NCBI RefSeq assembly: GCF_014635285.1 | Contig: NZ_BMCR01000001.1 | Coordinates: forward strand, 682,001-746,000 | DNA length: 64,000 bases | Origin: Stappia taiwanensis | Lineage (GTDB): Bacteria > Pseudomonadota > Alphaproteobacteria > Rhizobiales > Stappiaceae | Direction of reading: 5' to 3' | Shown here: positions 47,732 to 61,805 of the stretch, in pieces | Layout: every line of letters begins with the position of its first letter | Numbering within the stretch: position 1 is the stretch's first letter | Program-made: the position numbers and the translations under genes | Notes under the pieces: model-generated | What the model was told of the DNA's origin: nothing | Databases searched by the model: none | The model's input: only the letters and a program-made list of their open reading frames with translations

Positions 47732-48439
47732 ATGTTGAAAGTCGATCAACTCGTAAAAACCTTCGGTGGCATGACGGCGCTTGCCGGCATCAGCCTCACC
47801 GTCCCGGACCGCTCGATCCTCGGCGTTCTCGGCATGAACGGCTCCGGCAAGACCACGATGCTGAACTGCATCAACGGCATCTACGAAGCCACCGCCGGGG
47901 AAATCAGCCTCGATGGCGTCAGCCTCATCGGCAAGGCCCCGCATGCGGTGTTCTCCGAGGGCGTCGGCCGCACCTTCCAGGTGCCGCGGATCTTCCCCCA
48001 GATGTCTCTTCTGGAAAACCTTGCCGTCGCGCTGCTCAACAAGGGGCTGAGCAACGCGCAAGTGGCGGAGATCAGCGCCCACTGGCTCAACAAGGTGGAG
48101 CTCTACCGGCTGCGCCACAACTACGCGGAGGAGCTGTCCGGCGGACAGCAGAAGCTCCTGGAGCTGGCCCGCATCATGGTCGCCAATCCCAAGCTGGTGC
48201 TGCTCGACGAGCCCTTTGCCGGCGTCAACCCAAGCCTTGCCCTGCTCCTGATCGGCATCATCCGCGAGATGCCGCAAGAGGTCGGCTGCTCGGTCATGCT
48301 GGTGAGCCACGACCTGACCTCCGTCTACGAGCTGTCTGACAACATTCTGGTCATGCATGAAGGTCATGTGCTTGCCGAAGGCAACGCCGAGGCCATCCAG
48401 AAGAACCCCGACGTCATCGAAGCTTACCTGGGAGCCTGA
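47732..48439 (+). CDS. Branched-chain amino acid-type ABC ATPase (LivG-like)
   Basis: The 235-residue ATP-binding subunit has Walker A GMNGSGKTT, signature LSGGQQKLLELAR, Walker B LVLLDEPFAGVNP and a switch His in LVSHDLTSV. The VGRTFQVPRIFPQMSLLENL stretch is typical of LivG. It starts four bases after the LivH-like gene. Confidence 0.93.
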   Translation: MLKVDQLVKTFGGMTALAGISLTVPDRSILGVLGMNGSGKTTMLNCINGIYEATAGEISLDGVSLIGKAPHAVFSEGVGRTFQVPRIFPQMSLLENLAVALLNKGLSNAQVAEISAHWLNKVELYRLRHNYAEELSGGQQKLLELARIMVANPKLVLLDEPFAGVNPSLALLLIGIIREMPQEVGCSVMLVSHDLTSVYELSDNILVMHEGHVLAEGNAEAIQKNPDVIEAYLGA

Positions 48440-48441
48440 TC

Positions 48442-49185
48442 ATGGATGGCGTTGAACTCAGCATGGAAAACATCAGTGTCGCCTACAACGGGGACATCAC
48501 GGTGTTGCAGGGCGTGGCACTGCGCGCCCAGCCGGGCGAGGTGACCGGCATCATCGGCCCGAACGGAGCCGGCAAATCGACGGTGCTGAAGACCATCTTC
48601 GGCCTGCTGACCACCCGCACCGGCGCGATCCACATGGGCGGGCGCGACATCACCGGCCTGAAGGCGTTTCAGCGGGCGCTGGAAGGCATCGCCTTCGTGC
48701 CGCAGAACCGCAGCGTGTTTCCGGGCCTTTCGGTCTACGACAACCTGCTGCTCGGTTGCTGGCCGTTCCGCAAGGACAAGGCCCGGATCACCCGCGCCAT
48801 CGCCGCGACCTTCGACAAGTTCCCGGTGCTCAAGGAACGTTCCGCCAGCCCGGCCAGCGCGCTCAGCGGTGGCCAGCAGCGGTTCCTCGAGATCGCCCGG
48901 GCGCTGGTCACCGACCCGAAGGTCATTCTGCTCGACGAGCCGACGGCAATGATCGCGCCGAAGATTTCCAAGGACATCTACGCCCTGACCCGTTCGCTGG
49001 CGGACCAGGGGGCGACCATCATCCTGGTCGACCAGAACGTGCGCCAATGCGCCGCCATTTCCGACCGGCTCCACATCCTGGAGCTGGGCCGGAACAAGGC
49101 GGAGGGCACCAAGGAGGATTTCGCCACCGACGGCCAGCTCAAGGAGATGGTCGCCGAATGGATGAACTACAGGATCGACGTCTGA
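48442..49185 (+). CDS. Branched-chain amino acid-type ABC ATPase (LivF-like)
   Basis: The 247-residue second ATPase has Walker A GPNGAGKST, signature LSGGQQRFLEIAR, Walker B VILLDEPTAMIAP and LVDQNVRQ in place of the classical SHD switch, as is normal for LivF. It starts two bases after livG. Together with LivG it forms the ATPase dimer of the importer. Confidence 0.93.
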   Translation: MDGVELSMENISVAYNGDITVLQGVALRAQPGEVTGIIGPNGAGKSTVLKTIFGLLTTRTGAIHMGGRDITGLKAFQRALEGIAFVPQNRSVFPGLSVYDNLLLGCWPFRKDKARITRAIAATFDKFPVLKERSASPASALSGGQQRFLEIARALVTDPKVILLDEPTAMIAPKISKDIYALTRSLADQGATIILVDQNVRQCAAISDRLHILELGRNKAEGTKEDFATDGQLKEMVAEWMNYRIDV

Positions 49186-49229
49186 CGGCGTCGGGACGCA
49201 ACCAACCGGACCCAAGAGGGAGGATACCT

Positions 49230-50459
49230 ATGTGGACCATTACCAAGCGTAGTTTTCTGGCCGGCACGCTGCTGGCGTGCATGAGCCTGCCGCTGACCGT
49301 GGCAGAGGCGGCGGAGAAGATCCGCATCGGCATGACCGTGTCGTCATCGGGCAACTTCGCCCTCGCCTCCCAGTCGGGCGTGCGCGGCGTGGAGATCTGG
49401 GTCGACGAGATCAACAAGCAGGGCGGCCTTGAGTTCGGCGGCGAGAAGCGCCTCGTCGAACTGGTCAAGCGTGATGACCGCAGCGACAAGCAGATGGTCG
49501 CCCGGGTGTACGAAGACCTCATCGTCAACGAAGACGTGGACATTCTGCTCGCCCCCTTCGGCTCGACCCTGACGGCGGCGGCGGCCACGGTGACCGAGCG
49601 GCTCGGCAAGTTCATGGTGATCTGGTCGGCGGCCTCCGATGCCCTTTACGACCAGGGCTTCAAGAACATCGTCTCCGCCACCCAGATGCCGGTCTCGCGC
49701 ATGCCCTCCGCCGGCCTTGAGGCAGCCCATGCCCTCGGCGGCAAGAAGGTCGCCATCGTCAATGTCGACGAGCCCTTCCCCGCCGGCCTTGCCGACGGTG
49801 CCGAGGCCATTGCCGAGAAGCTCGGCATGGAAGTGGTTCTGAAGGAAGACTACCCGAAGGGCACCAAGGACTTCAGCCTGTTGCTGCAGAAGGCGCGGGC
49901 CGCCGGCGCGGACGTGTTCTTTCCCACCAGCTACGAGGGCGACCTCATCTCCATGGTGCGGCAGATGCGCCAGATGAACGTCAACTTCCCGTTCTCGTTC
50001 ATGGTCTACGCCTCGACGCCTCAGTTCATCGAGATCGGCGACGATGCCCAGTACATCTACAGCCACACCAACTTCCATCCCACCATCAACTGGGAAGTGA
50101 ACGCCGGCCTCGACCGCGCGGGCTTCATCAGCGCCTACGAGACGATGTTCCCGAACGTCTCCTATGAGCCGGACTTCCAGACGGTGCTCGCCTATGGCGC
50201 CGCCGTCATCGCCGGCGAGATCATCGAGAAGGCCGACAGCTTCGAAGCCGACAAGCTGAAGCAGGCCGCCCTCGACCTCAGCGACAACCTCACGGTTCTG
50301 GCCGGCCCCTATGCGGTCGACGAGACCGGCAAGCAGCTGAAGATGCCGTTCCCGGTCGTCCAGCTTCAGCCGGAAAAGGGCCTGGTCACCGTCTGGCCGG
50401 AAGAGGTCGCCGTCGCCAAGCCGGTGTACCCGATCCCCGCCTGGGACCAGCGGAACTGA
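49230..50459 (+). CDS. Periplasmic amino acid/amide-binding protein (LivK-like)
   Basis: The 409-residue type I periplasmic binding protein has a signal peptide (TKRSFLAGTLLACM, cleavage after AEA) and the Peripla_BP_6 fold beginning IRIGMTVSSSGNFALAS. ATG 49230 follows AGAGGGAGGA, a strong RBS that fits the need for excess binding protein although it is last in the transporter set. Similar proteins bind amino acids, amides or urea. The ligand cannot be read from the sequence. Confidence 0.9.
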   Translation: MWTITKRSFLAGTLLACMSLPLTVAEAAEKIRIGMTVSSSGNFALASQSGVRGVEIWVDEINKQGGLEFGGEKRLVELVKRDDRSDKQMVARVYEDLIVNEDVDILLAPFGSTLTAAAATVTERLGKFMVIWSAASDALYDQGFKNIVSATQMPVSRMPSAGLEAAHALGGKKVAIVNVDEPFPAGLADGAEAIAEKLGMEVVLKEDYPKGTKDFSLLLQKARAAGADVFFPTSYEGDLISMVRQMRQMNVNFPFSFMVYASTPQFIEIGDDAQYIYSHTNFHPTINWEVNAGLDRAGFISAYETMFPNVSYEPDFQTVLAYGAAVIAGEIIEKADSFEADKLKQAALDLSDNLTVLAGPYAVDETGKQLKMPFPVVQLQPEKGLVTVWPEEVAVAKPVYPIPAWDQRN

Positions 50460-50524
50460 TCAATCGCGCTCGGCCCGGGGGCGCACCCCGGGCCGGACGT
50501 ATCTCCTGTGAAAAGAAAGAAGAC

Positions 50525-51925
50525 ATGGACCTGTCATTTGCCTCCCTTGCGGATCTGTCGAAAGCCCTCGATGAGGGGGCTCTAACCGCAACCGATATCA
50601 CCCGGCATTTCCTCGACCGGATCGCCGCGCATGACACGAAGCTGGGTGCATTCGTCCATGTCGATGCCGACAAGGCGATGGCCATGGCCGAGGGCCATGA
50701 CAGGCTGCGCGCCTCAGGTGTCGTTTACGGCCCGCTGCACGGCCTGCCGATCGCCATCAAGGATCTGGTGGACTGGCAGGACGACATCTGCACCGTGGGC
50801 AGTGCCGCATGGTCGGATCGTCGCTCGGTGAGCGATGCCACCGTAATGCGGCGCCTGCTGGCCGCCGGCATGATCCCCATCGGCCGCACCGCCATGGTCG
50901 AGTTCGCCTTCGGCGGCTGGGGCACCAACCCGATCTGCGGCACCCCGCACAATCCGTGGGACCTTGACACCCATCGCATTCCCGGCGGCTCCTCCAGCGG
51001 GTCCGGCGTTGCTGTCGCCGCCGGCCTGGCCCCGGCAGCTCTTGGCAGCGACACCGGCGGCTCGGTCCGCATCCCGGCGGCGCTCAACGGCCTTGCCGGT
51101 CTCAAGCCGACCTACGGACGCATCAGCCTGAGCGGCTGCTTCCCCCTCTCCTCGACCCTCGATTCCGTCGGGCCGATGACCCGCACCGTCGAGGACGCGG
51201 CGCTGTTGTTTGAGGCGCTTGCCGGCGCCGACCCCGCCGACCCGGCGACCCTTGCCGCCCCCGCGCGTATCGCTAGCGCCTGGCGCCAGCTTTCGGCGGA
51301 CGGCATGCATGTGGCGGTGATGCGCGAGGAGGATTTCCCCGCCCCGCTCGATCCGCCCATGCAGGCCGCTTTCGAACGGGCGAAAGAGGCCCTGCGCTCC
51401 CTTGGCGTGAAGCTGGTGCCGGTCAGCCTGCCCTTCAGCTTCGACGAGCTGACGGCGCGGAACGGCCGCATCATCGCCGCCGAAGCCTATGCGGTGCACC
51501 GCGACTACATCGCCGACGACGCCCGCGCCTTCGGCCCTTACGTCCGCCAGCGCATTCTCGCCGGGGCCGGGGTCAGCGCCGACGATTACATCGACACCCT
51601 GGCGCATCACCGCCACATGAAGGAGGTCTATGCCGACTTCATGCGGCCGTTCGATGCCTTCCTGACGCCGGCCATCCCCTTCCCGGCGGTGCCGGTGGCC
51701 GAGGTGGATGAAACCACCGTCCCGCTGGCGCTTTATGGCCGGCCGGCCAACTACGTCGGCGCCTGTGCGCTGGCGCTGCCGGCCGGGTTCAGCGACGCCG
51801 GCTTGCCGCTTTCCGTGCAATTGATGGGCCGCGCCTTTGGCGAGGACAGCCTTCTGGCCCTTGGTGCCGCCCTTGAGCCCCGCCTGTCGCCGGATCGGCG
51901 CACCCCGGCAGGCCTTTCCGCATAA
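50525..51925 (+). CDS. Amidase signature family protein
   Basis: The 466-residue enzyme has the Ser-cisSer-Lys triad of amidases: Lys79 in PIAIKDLVD, cis-Ser156 in PGGSSSGSG and nucleophile Ser180 in GSDTGGSVRIPAAL. Members hydrolyse small amides, or act as GatA in tRNA-dependent amidation. No gatB or gatC is adjacent, and position after the Liv-type importer points to catabolism of an imported amide. No signal peptide is present, so it is cytoplasmic. Confidence 0.92.
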   Translation: MDLSFASLADLSKALDEGALTATDITRHFLDRIAAHDTKLGAFVHVDADKAMAMAEGHDRLRASGVVYGPLHGLPIAIKDLVDWQDDICTVGSAAWSDRRSVSDATVMRRLLAAGMIPIGRTAMVEFAFGGWGTNPICGTPHNPWDLDTHRIPGGSSSGSGVAVAAGLAPAALGSDTGGSVRIPAALNGLAGLKPTYGRISLSGCFPLSSTLDSVGPMTRTVEDAALLFEALAGADPADPATLAAPARIASAWRQLSADGMHVAVMREEDFPAPLDPPMQAAFERAKEALRSLGVKLVPVSLPFSFDELTARNGRIIAAEAYAVHRDYIADDARAFGPYVRQRILAGAGVSADDYIDTLAHHRHMKEVYADFMRPFDAFLTPAIPFPAVPVAEVDETTVPLALYGRPANYVGACALALPAGFSDAGLPLSVQLMGRAFGEDSLLALGAALEPRLSPDRRTPAGLSA

Positions 51926-51969
51926 CCACCGCCGCCCAGCGCCACGCCCACCAACCGAAGGACCCACCG

Positions 51970-53418
51970 ATGACACGGAAACAGTGCGACACACTGCTGA
52001 TCAACGCCGAGCTGTTCGACGGTCTCGGCGGTCCTCCGGTGACCGGCGGCGTGGCGATTGGCGGCGGGCAACTGCTCGCCATCGGCGATGTCTCCGACTG
52101 GTCGGCGCCGGACACCCGCGATCTGGACGGGCTCTGCCTCGCCCCCGGCTTCATCGACGTGCACACCCATGACGACCTCGCCGTTCTCAACGACAGCGCC
52201 ATGGAGCCGAAGATCACCCAAGGGGTGACCACCGTGATCGTCGGCAATTGCGGCATCAGCCTCGCGCCCTACAAGCATCCGCCAAAGCTGGTGCCGCCGC
52301 TGGGCCTGCTCGGCGATGCCGACGACTACCGCTTCGGCTCCTTCGCCGCCTATCGGCGAGCGGTCGACGATGCCGGCGTTGCGGTCAATGTGGCCGCGCT
52401 CGCCGGTCACGGCACGTTGCGGGCCATGGTGCTCGCCGACACGGACCGTCCGGCCAGCCGGGCGGAAGTCGACGCCATGCGCGGACATCTCAACGAAGCG
52501 CTCACCGCCGGCGTGCTCGGTCTCAGCACCGGCCTTGCCTATCCGGTCGCCAAGGCCGCACCGACCGAGGAAATCGTCGCCCTGTCGCAGGAGCTGGCCG
52601 CCTTCCCCGGTGCGCTCTACGTCACCCATATGCGCGACGAGCGCGACGGGGTGGAAGAGGCGGTCGGCGAGACCATCGGCATCGGCCGGCAGGCAGGCGT
52701 TCCCGTGGTGATCTCCCACCACAAATGCATCGGCAAGCAGAACTATGGCCGCTCGGTCCGGACCCTGTCGATGATCGACAAGGCCCTGCGCCATCAGGAC
52801 ATCGCCATGGATGTCTACCCTTATGAGGCCAGTTCCACCGTGCTTCTGCCGGAGCTGACCCGGCACGCGGAACGCATTCTGGTGATCAACTCCCGGCCCC
52901 ATCCGGAATTCAACGGCATGGAGCTCTCCCGCGTTGCCGAGCAGATGGGCTGCGATGACGAGGAAGCCGCCCGCCGGCTCAGCCCCGCCATGGGGGTCTA
53001 TTTCCAGATGTCGCCGGAGGACATCCGCCGCATCATGAGCCACCCGCGCACCATGATCGGCTCCGATGGCATTCCCGGCCCGCAATCCCATCCGCGCCTC
53101 TGGGGCACCTTCCCCCGCGTGCTCGGACGCTACGTGCGCGAGGATGGCGTGCTACCGCTGGAAGAAGCCATTCGCAAGATGACCTCCCTGCCCGCGCAGG
53201 TGTTCGGCATGGCCCGCCGCGGCCGGCTGCAGACCGGCTTCAGCGCCGACCTTGTCGCCTTCAACGCCGAGACCGTGCTGGACCTTGCGGACTATGACAC
53301 GCCGGACCGTCCCTCGACCGGCATCGAGCATGTGTTCGTCAATGGCCGACCGGTTCTCACCGATGGCCGGGTGACGGGAACGCGCGGCGGCCGCTTCCTG
53401 GCGCGCGGCGCCGTCTGA
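51970..53418 (+). CDS. D-aminoacylase/N-acyl-D-amino-acid deacylase-like amidohydrolase
   Basis: The 482-residue metal-dependent amidohydrolase has the HxH ligands in FIDVHTHDDL (His65, His67), the bridging Cys94 in VGNCGISLAP that marks the D-aminoacylase group, YVTHMRDE and SHHKCIGK with further ligands, and the catalytic Asp in MIGSDGIPGPQSHPR. It probably removes the acyl group from an N-acyl-D-amino acid or a related carbamoyl compound. It lies 44 bases after the amidase, the last gene of the uptake-and-hydrolysis set. Confidence 0.9.
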   Translation: MTRKQCDTLLINAELFDGLGGPPVTGGVAIGGGQLLAIGDVSDWSAPDTRDLDGLCLAPGFIDVHTHDDLAVLNDSAMEPKITQGVTTVIVGNCGISLAPYKHPPKLVPPLGLLGDADDYRFGSFAAYRRAVDDAGVAVNVAALAGHGTLRAMVLADTDRPASRAEVDAMRGHLNEALTAGVLGLSTGLAYPVAKAAPTEEIVALSQELAAFPGALYVTHMRDERDGVEEAVGETIGIGRQAGVPVVISHHKCIGKQNYGRSVRTLSMIDKALRHQDIAMDVYPYEASSTVLLPELTRHAERILVINSRPHPEFNGMELSRVAEQMGCDDEEAARRLSPAMGVYFQMSPEDIRRIMSHPRTMIGSDGIPGPQSHPRLWGTFPRVLGRYVREDGVLPLEEAIRKMTSLPAQVFGMARRGRLQTGFSADLVAFNAETVLDLADYDTPDRPSTGIEHVFVNGRPVLTDGRVTGTRGGRFLARGAV

Positions 53419-53462
53419 GCGCAAGGAAGCGACGGTTTGCGGACCGGCGCGCCTTCCTCCAA

Positions 53463-54356
53463 TCAGCTTTCCTGGTGCAGCTCCGTGCAGGCGGATTTCA
53501 GGATCTTGATGAACATGTCTTCCGCGTTCGAGATCGGCCGGTTTTCCGCCGTGAGCGCGGTGATGGTGAACTGAAGCGGCGGCGTCAGCGGACGCAGCCG
53601 CACCCCGCGCGTGAACCGGGCGGAAAACTCATCGACGATGGCGCAGCCTACCCCCTGGCTGACACAGGCGGCGGCCACCGAATAGGTGTGCACCGAGATG
53701 CGCGGCTCATAGGCAACGCCCACCCGCTCGAACGCATCCTTGAGGAACACCCCGACCGGCGATTCCCCTTCCAGCCCAACGAAGCTGTTCATGTCGATCT
53801 CGCGCAGATCCATCGGCGAAGGATCGACCACCGCCCCCGGACCGTCCGTTTCCAGATAGGTCAGGCTCATGGTGCCGACGGTGGTGCTGTTGATGCCGGG
53901 CGTCTCGACGATGGAAAACCCCACCGCCAGATCCAGGTCGAGCGCCAAGAGCCGTTTCACCAGCACATCGTAGTGATGGGTGAAAAGCTCCAGCTTGAAG
54001 CCCTCCCAGTGCTGCGGCAGCTTGGACACCACCTTCGGCGCCAACCCCACCCCGAGGCTGGGCAGAAAGCCGACCCGCAGCACATTGTCCGGATTGCGCC
54101 CCAGGTTGCGCGCCAGCGTGCGGAAGCGCTCCAGCGCGACCTGCACGTCCTTGGCTTCGGCAAACAGCAGTTCGGCTTCCTTGGTCGGCACCAGCCGCTG
54201 TTTCACCCGGTCGAACAGCTTGAACCCGAGCAGGGATTCGGCGTGCTTCAGGGTCCGGCTGAGCGCCGGTTGGGACACGTTCAGCCGGTCGGCGGCGGCA
54301 TTGATCGAACCGGCCAGCCGGATTGCGTGGAAAACCTCGATATGGCGAAGATTCAT
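53463..54356 (-). CDS. LysR-family transcriptional regulator
   Basis: The 297-residue regulator has an N-terminal winged helix (NLRHIEVFHAIRLAGSINAAADRLNVSQPALSR) and a periplasmic-binding-like effector domain from about residue 90. It is convergent with the D-aminoacylase gene and divergent from the permease-kinase gene, with 316 bases between the two starts. It could control either set; placement next to the aminoacylase operon makes that the first guess. Confidence 0.9.
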   Translation of the reverse strand: MNLRHIEVFHAIRLAGSINAAADRLNVSQPALSRTLKHAESLLGFKLFDRVKQRLVPTKEAELLFAEAKDVQVALERFRTLARNLGRNPDNVLRVGFLPSLGVGLAPKVVSKLPQHWEGFKLELFTHHYDVLVKRLLALDLDLAVGFSIVETPGINSTTVGTMSLTYLETDGPGAVVDPSPMDLREIDMNSFVGLEGESPVGVFLKDAFERVGVAYEPRISVHTYSVAAACVSQGVGCAIVDEFSARFTRGVRLRPLTPPLQFTITALTAENRPISNAEDMFIKILKSACTELHQES

Positions 54357-54672: not shown

Positions 54673-57300
54673 ATGGACCTTCCGCACCTGCCCGCGCTGC
54701 GGTCCTATCACTCCTGGATCGCCAACGAGACGTTGGAGGATTACTCGCTGCGCTACGCGGCGCGGTCGTTCCGGCGCTGGTCGCCCTTCGTCATCGCCAA
54801 CACCGCGCTGGGCGGCATTTCCTTTCTCGCGCTAGAGGCCATCGGCGGCGCCATCACCCTCAGCTACGGCTTTGCCAACGCCTTTCCCGCCGTGCTGGTG
54901 ACCTGCCTGTTCGTCTTCATCACCAGCCTGCCGATTGCCTATTATTCCAGCCGCCACAACATCGACATGGATCTGCTGACCCGGGGCGCGGGCTTCGGCT
55001 ACATCGGTTCCACCATCACCTCGCTGATCTACGCCACCTTCACCTTCATCTTCTTCGCGCTGGAAGGCGCGATCATGGCCCAGGCCCTGAAGCTGTTCGC
55101 CGATGTGCCGCTGGTGCTCGGCTACATCATCTCCTCGCTGATCATCATCCCGATCACCTTCATGGGCGTCACCATGATCAGCCGGCTGCAACTGATCACC
55201 CAGCCGCTGTGGATCATGATGCTGTTGCTGCCGTTCATCGCCATCGCCATCGGTCATCCGGAGACCGCGCGCGACTGGGTCGCCTTCGCCGGCAGCGAGA
55301 AGGGCGGCGGCGGTTTCAACATGCTCTCCTTCGGCGCGGCGCTGGGCATCCTGTTCGCCCTGTCGATCCAGATCGGCGAGCAGGTCGACTATCTGCGCTT
55401 CCTGCCCGACAAGACACCGGAGAACCGCCTGCGCTGGTGGGCCGCCGTCATTTCCGCCGGGCCGGGCTGGATCGTCATCGGCGGCTTCAAGATCCTGTGC
55501 GGCAGCTTTCTCGCCGCCATCGCCATCACCTCGGGCCTTTCCAGCGAAACCGCGCTGGAGCCGATCCATATGTACATTCAGGCCTATGGCTACGTCAGCT
55601 CCGATCAGGTGGTGGTGCTGGCGGCGGCGGCGATCTTCGTGCTGGTCTCGCAGGTGAAAATCAACGTGACCAACGCCTATGCCGGCTCGCTCGCCTGGTC
55701 GAACTTCTTTGCCCGGGTCACCCATTATCACCCGGGCCGGGTGGTCTGGCTGGTGTTCAACATCCTGATCTCGCTCTTGTTGATGCTGCTCGGCATCTTC
55801 CAGACGCTGGAACTGGTGCTGGCGGTCTATTCGGTCATCGCCGCCGCCTGGATCGGGTCGATCTTCGCCGATCTCGCCATCCTCAAGCCCCTTGGCGTCA
55901 GCCCCGCCTATCCGGAATTCCGGCGCGCCTACCTGCCCGATTTCAACCCGGTCGGCTGCGGCTCGATGGCGCTCGGCGCATTGGTGGCGGTGATCTGCTT
56001 CACCGGCACGCTGGGCACCATGGCCCAGGCCTATGCCGCGCCCATCGCCTTCCTCACCGCCCTTGCCAGCGCGGTCGCCATCGGCGTTCTCACCAAGGGC
56101 AAATACTACCGCGCCCGCCCGGTCACCCCCTTCGCCGATCCGAAGCGCCGCATCCTGCGCTGCGAGCTTTGCGGCCTCGATTACGAGCGTCCGGACATGG
56201 TGCATTGCACCTTCTACGAGCGGCCGATCTGCTCGCTGTGTTGCAGCCTCGATTCCCATTGCCACGATGTCTGCAAATCGCCCGGCGGGGTGCTGGAGGA
56301 ATCGCGCGCCAGCTACCTGGGGCGGGGCCTGCGCAACAAGATCGCCCCGCACATGCAGCAGCGACTGTTCAAGGTCGGCGGCATCCTGTTTGCCCTGGCC
56401 ATCGTCACGGCGGCGGCGATCCTCCTCGCCTATCGCCTGATCGAACCCGCCGCCGGTCAGCCGCGTCTAGACAGCGGCTCGCTGCTGCTCGGGGTGTTTC
56501 TGGCGCTCTTGCCCCTTCTGTGCATCGGCGCCTGGTGGATCGTCCTGTCCCATGAAAGCCGGGAACTGGCCGAACGCGACCTGATGGCCTCCATGGAGAA
56601 GCTGCGTCAGGCACAACAGGATCTGGCCAGCAACGAGCGGCTGGCCGCCATCGGCAAGGTCACCGCCACCGTCAGCCATGAATTGCGCAACCCGCTCGGC
56701 ACGCTGGTCACCTCCTCCGATATCCTGCGCCGCTCGCTCAAGAACGCCGGCGAACCGGTGTCCGGCGAGCTGGAACGGATGCAGCGCAATGCCTGGCGCT
56801 GCGTGCGCATCATCGAGGACCTGCTCGACTTCTCGCGCAAGCATCGCTTCGCCCCCGCCCCGCTGGCGATCGACCGCTGGGCGGAAAATCAGGTCAATGA
56901 ACTCGACGACCGGACCCGCCCCCTGATCCACCTCGACCTTGCCGCCGATTGCGAGTTGATGGCCGACGGCGAACGGCTGCACCAGGCCTTCTCCAATGTG
57001 CTGACCAACGCGCTGCAAGCCTGCGAGGCGGTGCAGGATCGCGATACCGCGATCCGTGTCGCCACCCGGCGCGAGGGCGACCGGGTGTGTCTGTCCATCG
57101 CCGACAACGGCGGCGGCATGTCGATGGAGGCGCGCCGGCGCGCCTTCGAGCCGCTTTACAGCACCAAGGCGTTCGGCGTCGGCCTCGGCATGCCGCTGGT
57201 CAAGCGCATCATTGAGGCCCATGGCGGCGAAATCCGCATCGACAGTATCGAGGGCGAAGGCAGCACCGTCACCCTTGTGTTGCCGGGGATGGGAGCATGA
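54673..57300 (+). CDS. NCS1-type permease fused to a histidine kinase through a cysteine-rich linker
   Basis: The 875-residue protein begins with about twelve membrane helices (residues 36-475) resembling nucleobase:cation symporter-1/cytosine permeases. Residues 497-534 hold eight cysteines in CxxC-like spacing (497, 500, 512, 520, 523, 524, 530, 534) plus histidines, suggesting zinc binding. Two more helices (about 567-590, 602-625) and a coiled coil lead to a HisKA domain (His669 in VSHELRNPLG) and an HATPase domain (N box at Asn779, DNGGGM, GVGLGMPLV). All kinase motifs look intact. Its stop overlaps the next gene (ATGA). The design parallels CbrA, where a sodium-solute symporter is fused to a kinase. 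The likely signal is a nucleobase- or amide-like compound. Confidence 0.88.
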   Translation: MDLPHLPALRSYHSWIANETLEDYSLRYAARSFRRWSPFVIANTALGGISFLALEAIGGAITLSYGFANAFPAVLVTCLFVFITSLPIAYYSSRHNIDMDLLTRGAGFGYIGSTITSLIYATFTFIFFALEGAIMAQALKLFADVPLVLGYIISSLIIIPITFMGVTMISRLQLITQPLWIMMLLLPFIAIAIGHPETARDWVAFAGSEKGGGGFNMLSFGAALGILFALSIQIGEQVDYLRFLPDKTPENRLRWWAAVISAGPGWIVIGGFKILCGSFLAAIAITSGLSSETALEPIHMYIQAYGYVSSDQVVVLAAAAIFVLVSQVKINVTNAYAGSLAWSNFFARVTHYHPGRVVWLVFNILISLLLMLLGIFQTLELVLAVYSVIAAAWIGSIFADLAILKPLGVSPAYPEFRRAYLPDFNPVGCGSMALGALVAVICFTGTLGTMAQAYAAPIAFLTALASAVAIGVLTKGKYYRARPVTPFADPKRRILRCELCGLDYERPDMVHCTFYERPICSLCCSLDSHCHDVCKSPGGVLEESRASYLGRGLRNKIAPHMQQRLFKVGGILFALAIVTAAAILLAYRLIEPAAGQPRLDSGSLLLGVFLALLPLLCIGAWWIVLSHESRELAERDLMASMEKLRQAQQDLASNERLAAIGKVTATVSHELRNPLGTLVTSSDILRRSLKNAGEPVSGELERMQRNAWRCVRIIEDLLDFSRKHRFAPAPLAIDRWAENQVNELDDRTRPLIHLDLAADCELMADGERLHQAFSNVLTNALQACEAVQDRDTAIRVATRREGDRVCLSIADNGGGMSMEARRRAFEPLYSTKAFGVGLGMPLVKRIIEAHGGEIRIDSIEGEGSTVTLVLPGMGA

Positions 57301-58508
57301 GCCAACCGGAGGATGGCAACATGACAGCACAGGAGGACAACCGCTTGACGAGACAGGGCGCCGGCGGGCGGGCGCTGCTGATCGTCGATGACGACACGGA
57401 TTTCGCCGCAAGCCTCGCCGGCCTGCTGCGGCTCGAGGACTACCGGGTGTTTCAGGCCCATGACGGCGAGACCGCCCTTGGGCTGATCGACCGGCAATCG
57501 GTCTCCGTCGCCCTTGTCGACGTGCGGCTTGGCACCGGCGATGGCATCGAGGTGGTGCGGGCCTTGCGCAAAAAGGATCCGGACCTCGTCTGCGTGATGA
57601 TCACCGCCTATGCCTCGGTCGAAACGGCGGTCGAGGCGCTGCAGGCGGGCGCCTACGACTACCTGATGAAGCCGTTCCACTGCGAGGATCTGCTTGCCAC
57701 CTTGAACCGGTGCTTCGAGCGCATCCAGCTTCTCAAGGACAAGGCGCTGGCCGCCGCCCGGCTGAGCCAGAAGCAGCGCATGGAGGCGATGGGGCAACTG
57801 ACCAGCGGCATTGCCCATGACTTCAACAACATCCTCGCCGTTCAGCTCAGCAATCTGCGCCTGCTGGAAGAGCGCGTGCGGCACCAGCCGGAGTTGGCGG
57901 AACTGGTCGCCGACGCGCTCGCTGCCACCCGGTCCGGCTCCGACCTGACGACCCGGCTTCTCGGCTTCGGCGCCGCGCCATCGGAAAACATCGGTCTGGT
58001 CCGGCTGGACGAAGAGCTTCCCGCCCTCATCCGCATGCTCGAACGCACCCTGGGGGATACGCTCGTCATCCGCCTGCGCATGGAGGATGGGCTTTCCCCG
58101 GTCGAACTCCTGCCCGGACGGCTGGAAACGAGCCTGCTCAACCTGGCGCTCAACGCGCGCGATGCCATGCCCGCCGGCGGCACCCTCGATTTCGAGGCGC
58201 GCAACGTCCGCCTCGGCCTCGACGGGCATCAGGGCCCGACCGATCTGGTCCCGGGCGACTATGTGGTGATCTCGGTCGCCGACAGCGGCGAAGGCATGAG
58301 CCCGGCGGTGCGCGCCCGCGCGCTTGATCCGCTCTTCACCACAAAGCCGCCGGGCGAAGGCTGCGGCCTTGGGCTGCCGATGGTGGACAATTTCGTGCGC
58401 GGCTCGGGCGGGCGCCTTGCCATCGACAGCGCCCCGGGGCGCGGCACCCGCATCAGCCTCTATCTGCCACGCGCGGTTCAGTGGCCTTCGGGCGGCGCGA
58501 ACATGTAG
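57297..58508 (+). CDS. Receiver-histidine kinase protein (REC-HisKA-HATPase)
   Basis: The 403-residue soluble protein has an N-terminal receiver domain (phospho-Asp75 in VALVDVRLG, Lys in LMKPFH) and a histidine-kinase core with His174 in GIAHDFNNILAV, N box LNLALNARDAM, ADSGEGM and GCGLGLPMV. There is no output domain. It is translationally coupled to the permease-kinase (ATGA overlap), so it is a natural phosphorelay partner: Asp75 could receive phosphate from His669, and His174 could pass it on. Its 3' end overlaps the convergent OmpR-type gene by 31 bases. Confidence 0.9.
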   Translation: MSQPEDGNMTAQEDNRLTRQGAGGRALLIVDDDTDFAASLAGLLRLEDYRVFQAHDGETALGLIDRQSVSVALVDVRLGTGDGIEVVRALRKKDPDLVCVMITAYASVETAVEALQAGAYDYLMKPFHCEDLLATLNRCFERIQLLKDKALAAARLSQKQRMEAMGQLTSGIAHDFNNILAVQLSNLRLLEERVRHQPELAELVADALAATRSGSDLTTRLLGFGAAPSENIGLVRLDEELPALIRMLERTLGDTLVIRLRMEDGLSPVELLPGRLETSLLNLALNARDAMPAGGTLDFEARNVRLGLDGHQGPTDLVPGDYVVISVADSGEGMSPAVRARALDPLFTTKPPGEGCGLGLPMVDNFVRGSGGRLAIDSAPGRGTRISLYLPRAVQWPSGGANM

Positions 58509-59212
58509 CCGATGCCGCGAATGGTCTTGATGAACTGCATCTCGCGGGCACTGTCGTTGAGCTTGCGGCGGATCTTGCCGATCAGCACATCGATGCTGCG
58601 GTCATAGGGGGTCCAGTTGCGGTTGGCGACGATCTCCAGGATCTGCTCGCGCGACAGGATGCGGCCGCGCCGCTGCACCAGTGCTGTCAGAACCTGAAAC
58701 TCCTGACTGGTCAGCCGGACCGCCTCACCCTCGGGCGACTTCAACTGGTAGCAGGTGGGGTCGAGCCGCCAGCCGGCGAAACACATCGGCGCGACCTCCG
58801 CCTCCCCGTTTGCCGCCGGCTCGATCCGCCGCACCGCCCGGCGCAGCACCGAGCGCACCCGCGCCAGCAACTCGCGCGGCTCGAACGGCTTGGTAATGTA
58901 GTCATCCGCGCCCAGTTCCAGGCACACCACCTTGTCGATGGTGGTGCTCTTGCCCGACAGAACGATCACCGGGAAATCGTATTGCGCCCGCAGACCGCGT
59001 GCCAGCGTGATGCCATCGTCGCCGGAGGAAAAGGTCAGGTCGAGAATCACCAGATCGAACGGCTGGTCGGCCAGCGCCCGCCGCATCTCCCGCCCTTCAT
59101 TGGCGCAAGTGACGCCGTAGCCCTCGCCCGACAGGAACTTCTGCAGGAAATTGCACAACAGCCGGTCATCATCGACGACGAGTATGCGGGATCGTGTTTC
59201 TTCGCTCTGCAT
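58478..59212 (-). CDS. OmpR-family response regulator of the permease-kinase locus
   Basis: The 244-residue regulator has a receiver domain (LVVDDDR acidic pocket, phospho-Asp58 in LVILDLTF, Lys in ITKPFEP) and a winged-helix DNA-binding domain ending in SIDVLIGKIRRKL and IRGIGYMF. ATG 59212 gives MQSEETRSRILVVDDD; the frame runs to 59449 but the extra part is not family-like. It is divergent from fmdA across 385 bases and overlaps the REC-kinase gene at its 3' end. It is the likely output of the upstream kinases and the likely activator of fmdA. Confidence 0.92.
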   Translation of the reverse strand: MQSEETRSRILVVDDDRLLCNFLQKFLSGEGYGVTCANEGREMRRALADQPFDLVILDLTFSSGDDGITLARGLRAQYDFPVIVLSGKSTTIDKVVCLELGADDYITKPFEPRELLARVRSVLRRAVRRIEPAANGEAEVAPMCFAGWRLDPTCYQLKSPEGEAVRLTSQEFQVLTALVQRRGRILSREQILEIVANRNWTPYDRSIDVLIGKIRRKLNDSAREMQFIKTIRGIGYMFAPPEGH

Positions 59213-59597
59213 GGCGATACGATAAGCGCATTTCCCGCCGCCGGTCGAGCGCTTCAGCATCGGTATTTGTCGCGAGCTCCCCGCAACTATTGGGAGGGAG
59301 AGCCAATTGCCGCACCATGGCGCAGGCACCACCCTGGAAAAATAATACAAATGATTGATCGAAAAGGGGAAACAGGGGTCTAAAAGGCTGCTTAAGCACA
59401 CCCCTAACGCCTTGGCCCGATTACAAAAAATTACAATCCGGCCGATCACCGCCCACAGTGAAATTACACAAGCTGCCTAACCTTGCCCCGCACGGTTCGC
59501 AATCCCGCACAAAGACGGAATGCGGATGGCGATCCTGGGGGGGAACGGCTGCGGCAGGCTCCTCCCGTTTTCGAGACTAACCGGAGGAGGAGCTTCC
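59213..59597. other. Divergent control region between the OmpR-type regulator and fmdA
   Basis: This 385-base stretch is partly AT-rich (about 59290-59480). It holds the ATTACAA repeats listed separately and a G7 tract at 59537-59543 followed by AAC. It must carry both promoters. No small gene or structured RNA is recognised. Confidence 0.55.
59420..59469. promoter_or_regulatory. ATTACAA direct repeats; candidate response-regulator binding site
   Basis: ATTACAA occurs at 59420-59426 and 59430-59436 (period 10), and ATTACAC at 59463-59469, 33 bases after the second. OmpR-family regulators bind direct repeats with 10-11 base spacing. The site is 129-178 bases before fmdA and about 210-260 bases before the regulator gene. 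Confidence 0.45.
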
Positions 59598-60824
59598 ATG
59601 CCCAAGACAGTATTTTCGGTCGACCTGAACAAGGCGCCGGAAGATCACGACATCAAGACGCACAACCGATGGCATCCGGACATCCCCCTCGTGGAAACCT
59701 TCAAGCGGAACGAAGTGATCCGCGTTGAATGTCACGACTGGACCGGTGGCCAGATCGGCAACAACGACAGCGCCAATGACGTGCGCGACGTCGACCTGAC
59801 GCGGGTGCATTACCTCAGCGGACCGTTCGGGTTCGAAGGCGCGGAGCCGGGCGATCTGCTCGTCGTGGACATTCTCGACCTTGGCGCCAAGCCGGATTCC
59901 GAATGGGGCTTCAACGGCCTGTTCGCCAAGGAAAACGGCGGCGGCTTCCTGACCGAGCATTATCCCAACGCCAGCAAGTCCTGCTGGGACTTCCAGGGCA
60001 TCTACACCACCTCCCGCCACATTCCCGGCGTTCGCTATCCGGGCATCATCCACCCCGGCCTGATCGGCTGCCTGCCCGATCACAACCTCCTGGCCGAGGC
60101 CAACCGGCGCGAGGCGGAACTGGTCGCCACCGACCCCAACCGGGTGCCGCCGCTCGCCGCCCTGCCCTATGCCGACACCGCGCTGATGGGCCAGCTCACC
60201 GGCGATGCGGCCCGTAAGGCGGCCGAGGAAGCCTGGCGCACCGTGCCGCCGCGCGAACATGGCGGCAACTGCGACATCAAGAACCTGTCGCGCGGCTCCA
60301 AGGTCTATTTCCCGGTCTATGTGAAGGGCGGCGGCCTTTCCATGGGCGACATCCACTTCTCCCAGGGCGATGGCGAGATCACCTTCTGCGGCGCCATCGA
60401 GATGGCCGGCTGGATCGACATCAGCGTCGATGTCATCAAGGGCGGCATGGCCAAATACGGCGTCGTCAATCCGATCTTCAAGCCGAGCCCGATCGACCCG
60501 CATTTCGACGACTATCTGATTTTCGAAGGCATCTCGGTCGATGAGCATACGGGCGAGCAGTACTATCTCGACGCCCATGTCGCCTACCGGCGCGCCTGTC
60601 TCAACGCCATCGAATATCTGATGAAATTCGGCTACTCGGGCGAGCAGGCCTACATGATCCTCGGCACCGCGCCAGTGGAGGGGCGCATCGCCGGCATTGT
60701 CGATATTCCAAATGTCTGCGCCACCCTGGCGATCCCGACAGGGATCTTCGACTTCGACATCAATCCGAACTCGACCGGCCCGACACGGCAGGACATCGGC
60801 GCGGATGTCGCCAAGACGAGCTGA
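59598..60824 (+). CDS. fmdA: Formamidase (acetamidase/formamidase family)
   Basis: FmdA hydrolyses formamide, and to a lesser extent other short amides, to the acid and ammonia. The 408-residue protein shows family stretches RVECHDWTGGQIGNND, PGIIHPGLIGC, REHGGNCDIKNL, GDIHFSQGDGEITFCGAIE and FDFDINPN. The length is typical (about 410). ATG 59598 follows GGAGGAGGAG, a very strong RBS. It is followed by an AmiS/UreI-type channel and an FmdB protein, the classical short-chain amide set. No signal peptide is present, so it is cytoplasmic. Confidence 0.95.
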   Translation: MPKTVFSVDLNKAPEDHDIKTHNRWHPDIPLVETFKRNEVIRVECHDWTGGQIGNNDSANDVRDVDLTRVHYLSGPFGFEGAEPGDLLVVDILDLGAKPDSEWGFNGLFAKENGGGFLTEHYPNASKSCWDFQGIYTTSRHIPGVRYPGIIHPGLIGCLPDHNLLAEANRREAELVATDPNRVPPLAALPYADTALMGQLTGDAARKAAEEAWRTVPPREHGGNCDIKNLSRGSKVYFPVYVKGGGLSMGDIHFSQGDGEITFCGAIEMAGWIDISVDVIKGGMAKYGVVNPIFKPSPIDPHFDDYLIFEGISVDEHTGEQYYLDAHVAYRRACLNAIEYLMKFGYSGEQAYMILGTAPVEGRIAGIVDIPNVCATLAIPTGIFDFDINPNSTGPTRQDIGADVAKTS

Positions 60825-60909: not shown

Positions 60910-61422
60910 ATGCTGCTCGGGTTTGCACTTTTATATGTCGGCGCCGTTTTGTTTCTCAACGGGCTCTGGCTGCTCGGCAAGATCGAGGATCGCGAGATCG
61001 TCGTCATCAATGTCGTCTCGGGGGTCGCCACCCTCGCCGTTGCCTTCAGCTCGCTGTTCGGCGGCGGAGCGGACGCCGCGTCGGTCAAGGCCGGCGCCCT
61101 CACCCTCTTGTTCACCACCACCTACCTTTGGGTTGCCTACAACCGGGTCGTGGCCGTCGACGGGCGTGGTCTTGGCTGGTTCAGCCTGTTCGTGGCCATC
61201 ACCGTTGCCCCGGTCGCCATCCAGGGGCTGAGTTCCGCCCAGTCCTTCACCGATGTCTGGCTGGGGCTCAACTGGGCGATCTGGGCCGTGCTCTGGTTCA
61301 TGTATTTCCTGCTGCTGGGCCTGCAAAAACCGGTGTTGCGGCCAACGGCGCTTCTGACGCTGGTCGCCGGCATCGTCACCGGCTGGATGCCCGGATACCT
61401 GCTCCTGGACGGAGTGTTGTGA
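60910..61422 (+). CDS. AmiS/UreI family amide or urea channel
   Basis: The 170-residue protein has six predicted helices and the family opening MLLGFALLYVGAVLFLNGLW, with the later stretch NWAIWAVLWFMYFLLLGL. AmiS/UreI proteins are proton-gated or constitutive pores for urea and short amides. ATG 60910 follows a run of GGGGGG used as RBS; a longer frame from 60697 overlaps fmdA and is rejected. Context makes formamide or acetamide the likely permeant. Confidence 0.9.
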   Translation: MLLGFALLYVGAVLFLNGLWLLGKIEDREIVVINVVSGVATLAVAFSSLFGGGADAASVKAGALTLLFTTTYLWVAYNRVVAVDGRGLGWFSLFVAITVAPVAIQGLSSAQSFTDVWLGLNWAIWAVLWFMYFLLLGLQKPVLRPTALLTLVAGIVTGWMPGYLLLDGVL

Positions 61423-61502: not shown

Positions 61503-61805
61503 ATGCCTCTTTACAACTACATCTGCGAAGAATGCGGCCCCTTCGATAGTTGGGAATCGATGAGCAATGCCGCGAACGCCTGCGCCTGCCCCGCCTGCAG
61601 CGAACCCAGCGCCCGGGACGTGGCGGCGCCGCGCCTCAACCTGATGAACACCACCTTGCGCCGGGCACATACCCGCTCGGAAAAGAGCGGCAGCGAACCC
61701 AAGGTGGTCAAGAGAAGCCACCTTGCCGGCTGCGGCTGCGCGCTGTGCAAGGTCGGACCGCAGAAGCCGACCCCGACCCGGCACAAATGGATGATCGGCC
61801 ACTGA
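61503..61805 (+). CDS. fmdB: FmdB-type zinc ribbon protein
   Basis: The 100-residue protein opens with the FmdB signature MPLYNYICEECG and has paired cysteines Cys8/Cys11 and Cys29/Cys32 for one zinc. A second cluster, CGCALC (Cys77, Cys79, Cys82), near the C-terminus is extra compared with minimal FmdB proteins. FmdB was reported as a regulator of formamidase in Methylophilus, though its mechanism is unclear. It is the third gene of the fmd set. Confidence 0.88.
   Translation: MPLYNYICEECGPFDSWESMSNAANACACPACSEPSARDVAAPRLNLMNTTLRRAHTRSEKSGSEPKVVKRSHLAGCGCALCKVGPQKPTPTRHKWMIGH

Follow-up and report, generated by a model that had tools for sequence, protein, structure and literature searches.

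A transporter-derived histidine kinase with an NCS1-type body and an eight-cysteine module in Stappia taiwanensis, a predicted sensor of short-chain amides and urea

The stretch analysed here (the window) comprises 64,000 nucleotides of Stappia taiwanensis (contig NZ_BMCR01000001.1, positions 682,001 to 746,000). It codes for a protein of 875 residues which combines, in a single chain, an NCS1-type transporter body, a module of eight cysteines, two additional membrane helices and a histidine kinase. We consider this protein, with a probability of about 0.72, to be a transporter-derived sensor histidine kinase (transceptor) for amides and urea, with formamide as the likeliest ligand in its own genome. 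It most likely signals the availability of formamide, urea or similar small amides as nitrogen source. The assignment is drawn from sequence comparison, namely from the domain architecture, the remote relationship to NCS1, the invariant eight-cysteine module, the linkage to formamidase and urea genes and the conserved putative operators. It is strongest in the NCS1 link, the universality of the cysteine module and the fmdA-linked direct repeat; it is weakest in ligand identity, zinc and transport. A sensing role had been suggested in an earlier examination of the same DNA without database searches (the sequence-only reading) and finds support here in the form of an amide/urea sensor.

The kinase half is complete, as had been claimed. 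HisKA and HATPase_c both score above their Pfam cut-offs (weaker related ATPase models also match in the HATPase_c region), and the motifs are intact: SHELR, which contains His669, NALQA at 779, DNGGGM at 811 and GVGLGM at 835. The protein thus has the phospho-acceptor histidine domain and the HATPase_c domain with N and G boxes of a HisKA-type sensor kinase. Pfam finds nothing before HisKA in residues 1-640, even at E<=1, and among 88 NCBIfam models, the best 25 begin without exception at residue 574 or later. In the family-averaged hydropathy profile, 17 stretches within residues 48-467 exceed the threshold, and we read these as 12 helices; two further peaks follow the body (Table 1), in line with the two helices proposed after the linker. 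A frameshift, which had been named as a possible refutation, or a chance fusion was rejected because full-length homologues with the same domain order exist at 42-98% identity. They match over residues 1-875 at 98% in the same genus and over about residues 6-868 at 42-45% elsewhere.

The identity of the front half was addressed by profile-profile alignment with hhalign, as single comparisons of a profile of 50 sequences with 26 NCS1 proteins. The NCS1 comparison gave 99.7% (score 134.6, residues 1-485), while the controls SSF, UrtA, UrtB, UrtC and reversed profiles reached at most 0.2%. An SLC5 (SSF) body was rejected, there being no SSF match in Pfam and only 0.2% in hhalign. A STAC domain was likewise found by Pfam neither in residues 1-640 of the protein nor in its homologues, and the eight-cysteine module stands there instead. 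Relatives that lack the kinase (free-standing relatives) behave as the front half does (NCS1 99.7%, SSF 1.0%, UrtC 0.2%). One of them, from Klebsiella, is 41% identical to the 875-residue protein over 523 residues and matches the Pfam NCS1 model PF02133 (Transp_cyt_pur) with 37.7 bits (cut-off 23.5), covering nearly the whole profile. PF02133 has no match in the free-standing relatives from Acinetobacter, Methylovirgula and Tsukamurella, none in the own genome, none at E<=1 in the 875-residue protein and none at E<=10 among 50 homologues. The signature residues R104, D239, R242, N331, N334 and D400 are common to NCS1 proteins and the front half. Although direct Pfam membership fails, NCS1 homology of the front half is well supported at the sequence level. 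The NCS1-like body proposed in the sequence-only reading is therefore borne out, while the Pfam search proposed as a check retrieved HisKA and HATPase_c and left Transp_cyt_pur below detection.

Relatives were collected by a profile scan of genome contigs with residues 1-640 (an 11-row alignment), which yielded at least 587 stretches encoding relatives. The best 80 of these, picked by transporter motifs, are the loci considered below. They originate from Alpha-, Beta- and Gammaproteobacteria, Sulfurimonas, cyanobacteria and Polyangium, and their proteins and the 875-residue protein make up the set of 81. The frame has at least 800 codons in 71 loci, runs off the contig in six, has the kinase in a separate frame in two (L016, L049) and is free-standing in one (L081). 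In L016 (10001-11884, 627 residues) and L049 (9968-12028, 686 residues), the kinase match lies in a downstream frame, and these are broken or misassembled copies. Among 61 related genomes, 20 (the own one included) have a homologue whose match extends beyond the kinase half, in most cases across residues 6-868 with 42-45% identity; one of these homologues is fragmented and another is truncated by a contig end. A set of 150 genomes from the phylum gave 15 matches above 800 bits in 14 genomes, all in frames of at least 880 residues, with the next score at 12.9 bits and without any free-standing relative. Plasmid records with a match number 531 (342 from Klebsiella); in 501 of these the match covers 80% or more of the 640-residue module. 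The fusion is an old one with a wide distribution, and the architecture is not rare. The sequence-only reading had called it little described; the listings of our searches of open-licence literature indeed showed no description of an NCS1 body joined to an eight-cysteine module and a histidine kinase, common as the relatives are.

The free-standing relatives came from plasmid records (one, from Klebsiella, reads like a chromosome) and from L081. Ten close ones were inspected (L166, L168, L169-L175 and L081), and the distant L163 and L167 were counted separately. Those from Klebsiella, Acinetobacter, Moraxella and Tsukamurella are 41-44% identical to residues 1-545. The free form of L081 (1112-2755, 547 residues, on a Thermosynechococcus MAG contig) lies beside a formamidase match and has an eight-cysteine tail and Phe at the position of Glu55. 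In Sulfurimonas, the front module is joined to other outputs: PAS-GGDEF in L035, GGDEF-EAL with or without PAS in L036, L054 and L064, and PAS-HisKA-REC-Hpt in L046. Kinase and receiver counts from a simple regular-expression survey of motifs, which disagreed with Pfam for some proteins, were set aside. Since the front unit stays constant while the outputs change, it is to be seen as an input module. In the tree, bootstrap is unsettled and branches are long, and we use it for the window clade only (10 rows, support 100/100) and not for dating the fusion (fused rows apart from Moraxella have 54/89).

The eight cysteines within 38 residues were confirmed at positions 497, 500, 512, 520, 523, 524, 530 and 534. 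All eight are kept in 81 of 81 aligned proteins, and the spacing C-x2-C-x11-C-x7-C-x2-CC-x5-C-x3-C recurs in 80 of 80 loci. This invariance is not a selection artefact, because the loci were chosen by transporter motifs. Over 71 proteins, mean identity to the 875-residue protein is 57.8% for the module and 58.3% for the body. Free-standing relatives from Moraxella, Acinetobacter (two) and Klebsiella end in a four-cysteine tail equivalent to Cys497/500/520/523. The tail has a longer loop in Rhodococcus USK10, a five-cysteine form occurs in Streptomyces, and the module is eroded in two Arthrobacter and in Tsukamurella. The full eight-cysteine tail is found in the free-standing forms of Methylovirgula and L081, and one distant free-standing relative has no cysteine module. 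We infer from this distribution one ancestral zinc site and a second set (512/524/530/534) fixed in the sensors; the two free forms with eight cysteines may instead be former fusions that lost their kinase. Zinc-finger profiles gave only insignificant matches. In the usual NCS1 topology, there are 12 helices and both ends are inside. The module would then be cytoplasmic, which favours zinc over disulphides.

The genes around the kinase point to a ligand class. FmdA, UrtA/B/C, UreC/UreG and aliphatic amidase were used as probes (at least 40% identity, a reach of about 10 kb), and at least one of them is found near the kinase in 67 of 80 loci and in 56 of the 62 loci longer than 15 kb; UrtA alone is present in 49 of 80. 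All ten loci of the window clade contain the receiver-kinase protein, the OmpR-type regulator and FmdA. A Paracoccus locus has the gene set of the window, AmiS/UreI included, and in many other loci the kinase is divergent from urtA...fmdA. Among the ten close free-standing relatives, eight adjoin urease, formamidase or aliphatic amidase genes (two of the eight being Acinetobacter plasmids with the same arrangement), while no amide/urea gene lies within 6 kb in L171 and L175. Methylovirgula has a formamidase, a fused sensor, a response regulator, a free transporter and an aliphatic amidase in one row, and a distant free-standing relative from Rhodococcus adjoins a CN_hydrolase gene. This neighbourhood points to short-chain amides or urea, rather than nucleobases, as the ligand class. 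Of the ligands that the sequence-only reading had named for testing, formamide and urea are favoured by the neighbourhood, and nucleobases and hydantoin are disfavoured by it.

A free-standing NCS1-like protein with a four-cysteine tail adjoins the urease genes of Klebsiella and Acinetobacter (L170 5989-7596, L168 5950-7557, L174 3959-5566). It is annotated as cytosine/allantoin permease or as hypothetical protein, and it is a candidate urea transporter. On the Raoultella plasmid AP021970.1 (L162 3876-14231, IncF), a fused homologue with a receiver domain is followed by a LuxR-type regulator, and the pair is divergent from urt genes and amiF. This homologue is a candidate for regulating the urea-transport cassette that some lineages are reported to have.

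In the own genus, the kinase is present in 2 of 14 genomes, and the FmdA of the window is 95% identical to that of Nitratireductor soli, a combination which suggests horizontal transfer of the cassette. Further upstream in the window, 47732-54356 contains genes for an ABC transporter of the branched-chain type and for a binding protein and, besides these, an amidase gene, one that resembles an amidohydrolase and a LysR regulator gene. We considered this block (47.7-54.4 kb) as part of the system and left it out because it does not accompany the kinase elsewhere: across the 80 loci, the binding protein, the amidohydrolase and the LysR regulator have no counterpart, and the amidase has one weak match. 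At 47846-47942, ARAGORN calls a tRNA-Ile inside an ABC ATPase gene on the other strand, which is probably a false call.

Two putative operators link the system to the promoters of these genes. A direct repeat, TTACA-N5-TTACA, occurs once per locus in 10 of 10 loci of the window clade, 61-172 bp from the start of the FmdA match, and upstream of fmdA in all 12 loci with the gene set of the window (the 10 clade loci, the window and Paracoccus). It was absent from 10 shuffled sets. In L061 and in Paracoccus, fmdA is relocated and the direct repeat is relocated with it. Elsewhere, the repeat was found in 2 of 70 other loci, which lack an FmdA match, and in the Raoultella stretch away from amiF. The underlying intergenic alignment was built from 5 of 9 regions. 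In the own genome (4.42 Mb), there are two exact matches, one of them being the fmdA site. The other is on contig 5 at 228618-228632 (L177); the surrounding stretch has one frame for a membrane protein and one that resembles an oxidoreductase. A palindrome, GTCA-N4-ACGT (consensus ATACGTCA-NN-TGACGTAT), is present in 37 of 41 divergent urtA-kinase spacers. Its longer core, TACGTCA-N4-ACGT, has 50 matches in those 41 loci (743 kb, counting overlaps and both strands), of which 38 fall within the spacers, and 2, 0, 0, 0 and 0 matches in shuffled sets. Nine loci have further sites of this core 42-158 bp from the FmdA start, and the last match (L074) is near the kinase start; the other 39 loci contain one match each in L072 and L079. 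We predict that the palindrome connects the system with amide/urea promoters, over and above the evidence of gene order.

Table 1. Features of the window assigned to the predicted sensor system (positions in the window; residue numbers refer to the 875-residue protein).
Feature	Position	Strand	Evidence or remark
NCS1-type transporter / eight-Cys module / two-helix / histidine kinase fusion, 875 aa	54673..57300	+	single open frame, ATG to stop
NCS1-like transporter body, residues 1-485; E131, K329, E236, K273	54673..56127	+	hhalign, hydropathy, residue mapping
Eight-cysteine module, residues 497-534, probable double zinc site (from sequence)	56161..56274	+	Cys conservation
Two extra membrane helices, peaks at residues 570-585 and 606-620	56350..56562	+	hydropathy
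HisKA phospho-acceptor domain, residues 661-723, His669	56653..56841	+	Pfam PF00512, E 7.4e-14; motif
HATPase_c catalytic domain, residues 765-871	56965..57285	+	Pfam PF02518, E 4.7e-24
Second protein: receiver domain (Asp75), HisKA-like, HATPase_c	57297..58508	+	start ATG overlaps kinase stop (ATGA)
OmpR-type response regulator	58478..59212 (called as 58478-59449; likely start 59212)	-	Response_reg and Trans_reg_C
Direct repeat TTACAAAAAATTACA, putative operator	59421..59435	+	between response regulator and fmdA; TTACA-N5-TTACA
Formamidase FmdA	59598..60824	+	NCBIfam NF045496, 739.6 bits (cut-off 500)
AmiS/UreI family amide/urea channel	60910..61422	+	Pfam PF02293, E 1.1e-57
FmdB-like zinc-ribbon protein	61503..61805	+	Pfam PF09723

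In CodB, sodium is reported to be held by the side chains of Thr278 and Thr279 of TM8 (PMC9379551). These align with Lys329 and Ile330, which are conserved in 81 of 81 and 80 of 81 proteins, respectively; position 329 is Lys in 9 and Arg in 2 of 11 free-standing relatives. The protein thus lacks a Na2 site of the CodB/Mhp1 type, although some NCS1 members are proton-coupled and need not have one. Sodium coupling, and with it ordinary sodium symport, appears unlikely because both sodium-ligating threonines of CodB are replaced by Lys-Ile. Gln121 of Mhp1 is described as a pocket residue (PMC13390362). By its spacing from the TM3 tryptophan, and without an alignment to Mhp1, the equivalent position is inferred to be Glu131. 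Glu is found there in 80 of 81 proteins (the exception being L086) and in all 11 free-standing relatives, and Gln in 15 of 27 reference NCS1 proteins. The tryptophan that stacks on the substrate in CodB (W108; Trp in 26 of 27 NCS1 proteins) is replaced by Phe or Leu in the 49 mapped proteins of the family. Glu55 is shared by 80 of 80 sensor-type proteins, and none of the 12 free ones has it, L081 being one of these; it is a candidate mark of the sensor form. His353 is always His in the sensors and mostly Tyr in the free forms. E55, E131, E236, K273 and K329 are conserved charges in the membrane body.

From these features, we propose the following mechanism. The first ca. 485 residues, a divergent NCS1 body (presumably of LeuT fold), would take up a short-chain amide or urea at the middle of the bundle, close to Glu131, and binding would move the fold between outward-facing and inward-facing states. 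Located in the cytoplasm and probably carrying two structural zinc ions, the cysteine module would, together with the two extra helices, relay this shift to the kinase dimer. The kinase would signal to the OmpR-type regulator, either directly or through the adjoining receiver-kinase protein, and the regulator would bind TTACA-N5-TTACA and switch on fmdA, the AmiS/UreI channel gene and fmdB. Lys329 would occupy the former Na2 sodium site, for which reason the receptor should function without sodium; it may be proton- or charge-gated, as in CbrA.

Several observations weigh against an amide/urea sensor of this kind. In 13 of 80 loci (L021, L024, L025, L026, L027, L035, L036, L038, L046, L054, L064, L069 and L079), no amide/urea gene is nearby, and six of these loci are longer than 15 kb (five being cyanobacterial or from Sulfurimonas), so that some branches may sense something else. 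The palindrome was discovered and counted on the same 41 loci and for this reason remains a prediction, and the relatedness of the loci inflates its conservation. A LuxR-type regulator was detected in 31 of these 41 loci; six of the remaining ten stop at the kinase or shortly after it, but L029, L047, L050 and L053 do not. The loss of the Na2 hydroxyls is not unique either: among 27 reference NCS1 proteins, the Thr278 column is Thr or Ser in 11 and the Thr279 column is Thr in 13, and only the Lys or Arg at the Na2 position, not the loss of hydroxyls, is the distinctive feature. Finally, the distant free-standing relative L163 adjoins hydantoinase A/B genes. The latter, together with NCS1 family membership and annotation labels such as "allantoin permease" and "cytosine permease", would fit a ligand of the classical NCS1 kind (nucleobase, hydantoin or allantoin), with the amide and urea genes serving downstream salvage. 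We regard this as unlikely: none of the 80 loci is matched by the probes for hydantoinase A/B (taken from L163) or E. coli CodA (allantoinase was not among the probes), formamidase, Urt, urease or amidase genes are present in 67 of them, and the substrate-stacking tryptophan of CodB is replaced throughout the proteins mapped.

A question of greater weight is whether transport and sensing of the ligand are combined in the front half, as the sequence-only reading had suggested, with the kinase reporting transport cycling. This is possible, though we doubt it. The body is whole and retains the NCS1 signature residues, free-standing relatives with the same E131 and K329 resemble transporters and lie in urease/formamidase clusters, and the SLC5 domain of CbrA, which also has a Lys in the Na2 site, is reported to import histidine (PMC13022988). 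On the other hand, neighbouring Urt ABC genes (49 of 80 loci have UrtA) or AmiS/UreI (in the window and in Paracoccus) would make transport by the sensor redundant, Methylovirgula has a separate free copy adjoining its sensor, and the differences at E55 and H353 between sensor and free forms suggest a changed function; Ks-Amt5, according to the account in PMC5764959, has lost transport. We therefore lean towards a receptor first, rather than a transporter. Metal or redox sensing by the cysteine module had been considered in the sequence-only reading; that the module is itself the primary sensor of this kind, with the transporter half as mere anchor, is improbable. All eight cysteines are invariant where most free forms tolerate the loss of several, and the module is as conserved as the body, but an anchor would not need so conserved a body, and the gene context is one of amide nitrogen in 67 of 80 loci. 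Since the module is not kinase-specific and ends free-standing relatives (in full in Methylovirgula and L081), a structural zinc site fits better. Least likely of all, the kinase would mainly report nitrogen or carbon status via protein partners, the transporter half being a vestigial anchor. In Sinorhizobium meliloti, the homologue SMb20609 is reported to be controlled by PhaR and to share an expression module with urease proteins (PMC12542648), which would agree with such a role; the conserved charges in the membrane body argue for a binding function that has been kept.

It is tempting to speculate further that this NCS1 branch is a separate system for urea and short-chain amides. The free members would be sodium-independent transporters, and the fused members their sensors, to which a kinase or GGDEF/EAL was added behind the cysteine tail, with the second four cysteines fixed for signalling. 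The Lys would have replaced the Na2 sodium independently of CbrA, and the same sensor would stand beside the urt-amiF cassette on Klebsiella-type plasmids. We hold this wider picture to be close to an even bet, though falling slightly short of one.

Transporter-kinase fusions form a short list (SLC5/CbrA and Amt were met here), to which NCS1 adds a third transporter family. The sensor half is widespread and yet matched no Pfam or NCBIfam model. It is a likely regulator for urea and formamide scavenging operons, including cassettes on conjugative plasmids, and the relatives encoded next to urease genes point to a candidate for urea transport that is uncharacterised. The predicted ligand class, the putative operators and the residue changes can be tested one by one.

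The closest known systems in design are the SLC5-STAC kinases CbrA and CrbS, which also join a transporter body, a cytoplasmic connector and a histidine kinase in one chain. CbrA shares the Lys in the Na2 site and is reported to depend on proton motive force (PMC13022988); the likeness appears convergent, since the transporter bodies belong to different families. Here, the body is of NCS1 rather than SSF type, the eight-cysteine module and two helices replace STAC, the Lys stands at the TM8 ligand position, and the gene context is amide/urea. Ks-Amt5 of Kuenenia is similar in that a transporter fold was recruited as histidine-kinase sensor for a nitrogen source, but the fold is Amt, and the account in PMC5764959 describes neither a cysteine module nor extra helices for it. 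Ks-Amt5 is named as transporter fusion in a review of sensor kinases, the main text of which contains neither "NCS1" nor "SLC5" (PMC8534201). With CodB, Mhp1 and MetT, the protein shares remote homology over the full NCS1 body and the signature residues (the sequences of Mhp1 and MetT were not compared directly); MetT is described as having a ring-free substrate and as probably proton-coupled (PMC13390362). It differs from NCS1 proteins of the CodB type by falling below PF02133 detection, by Lys-Ile in place of the Na2 threonines and by the fused kinase. The free-standing "allantoin/cytosine permeases" of urease and formamidase clusters have the same E131, K329, E236 and K273 and a whole or partial cysteine module, but no kinase, Phe in place of E55 and a four-cysteine or eroded module (except Methylovirgula and L081, which keep eight).

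Among fused homologues, the one on pSymB of S. meliloti (L161 8980-12360) starts at pSymB 1622168, beside urt and dct-like genes. By this position it is SMb20609; an identification with ExsG was considered and dropped for the same reason. S. meliloti 2011 also contains a match to the family. Like the Raoultella homologue, it has a LuxR-type regulator and is divergent from the urt genes; it differs from the 875-residue protein in being longer and ending in a receiver-like region (judged by eye). In PMC12542648, a PhaR site at 1622073-1622093 is assigned to SMb20609, described there as a putative sensor histidine kinase without known function, and its protein level and promoter are reported to depend on PhaR. 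In Klebsiella, a urt-amiF cassette ("UTS") is discussed as a urea transporter in lineage CG307 by a paper whose main text does not contain the term "histidine kinase" (PMC13060141); from its gene content, this cassette would be the same as that on the Raoultella plasmid. Transporter-kinase fusions are thus known as a kind, while the transporter family, the connector, the predicted ligand class and the putative regulon appear to be new.

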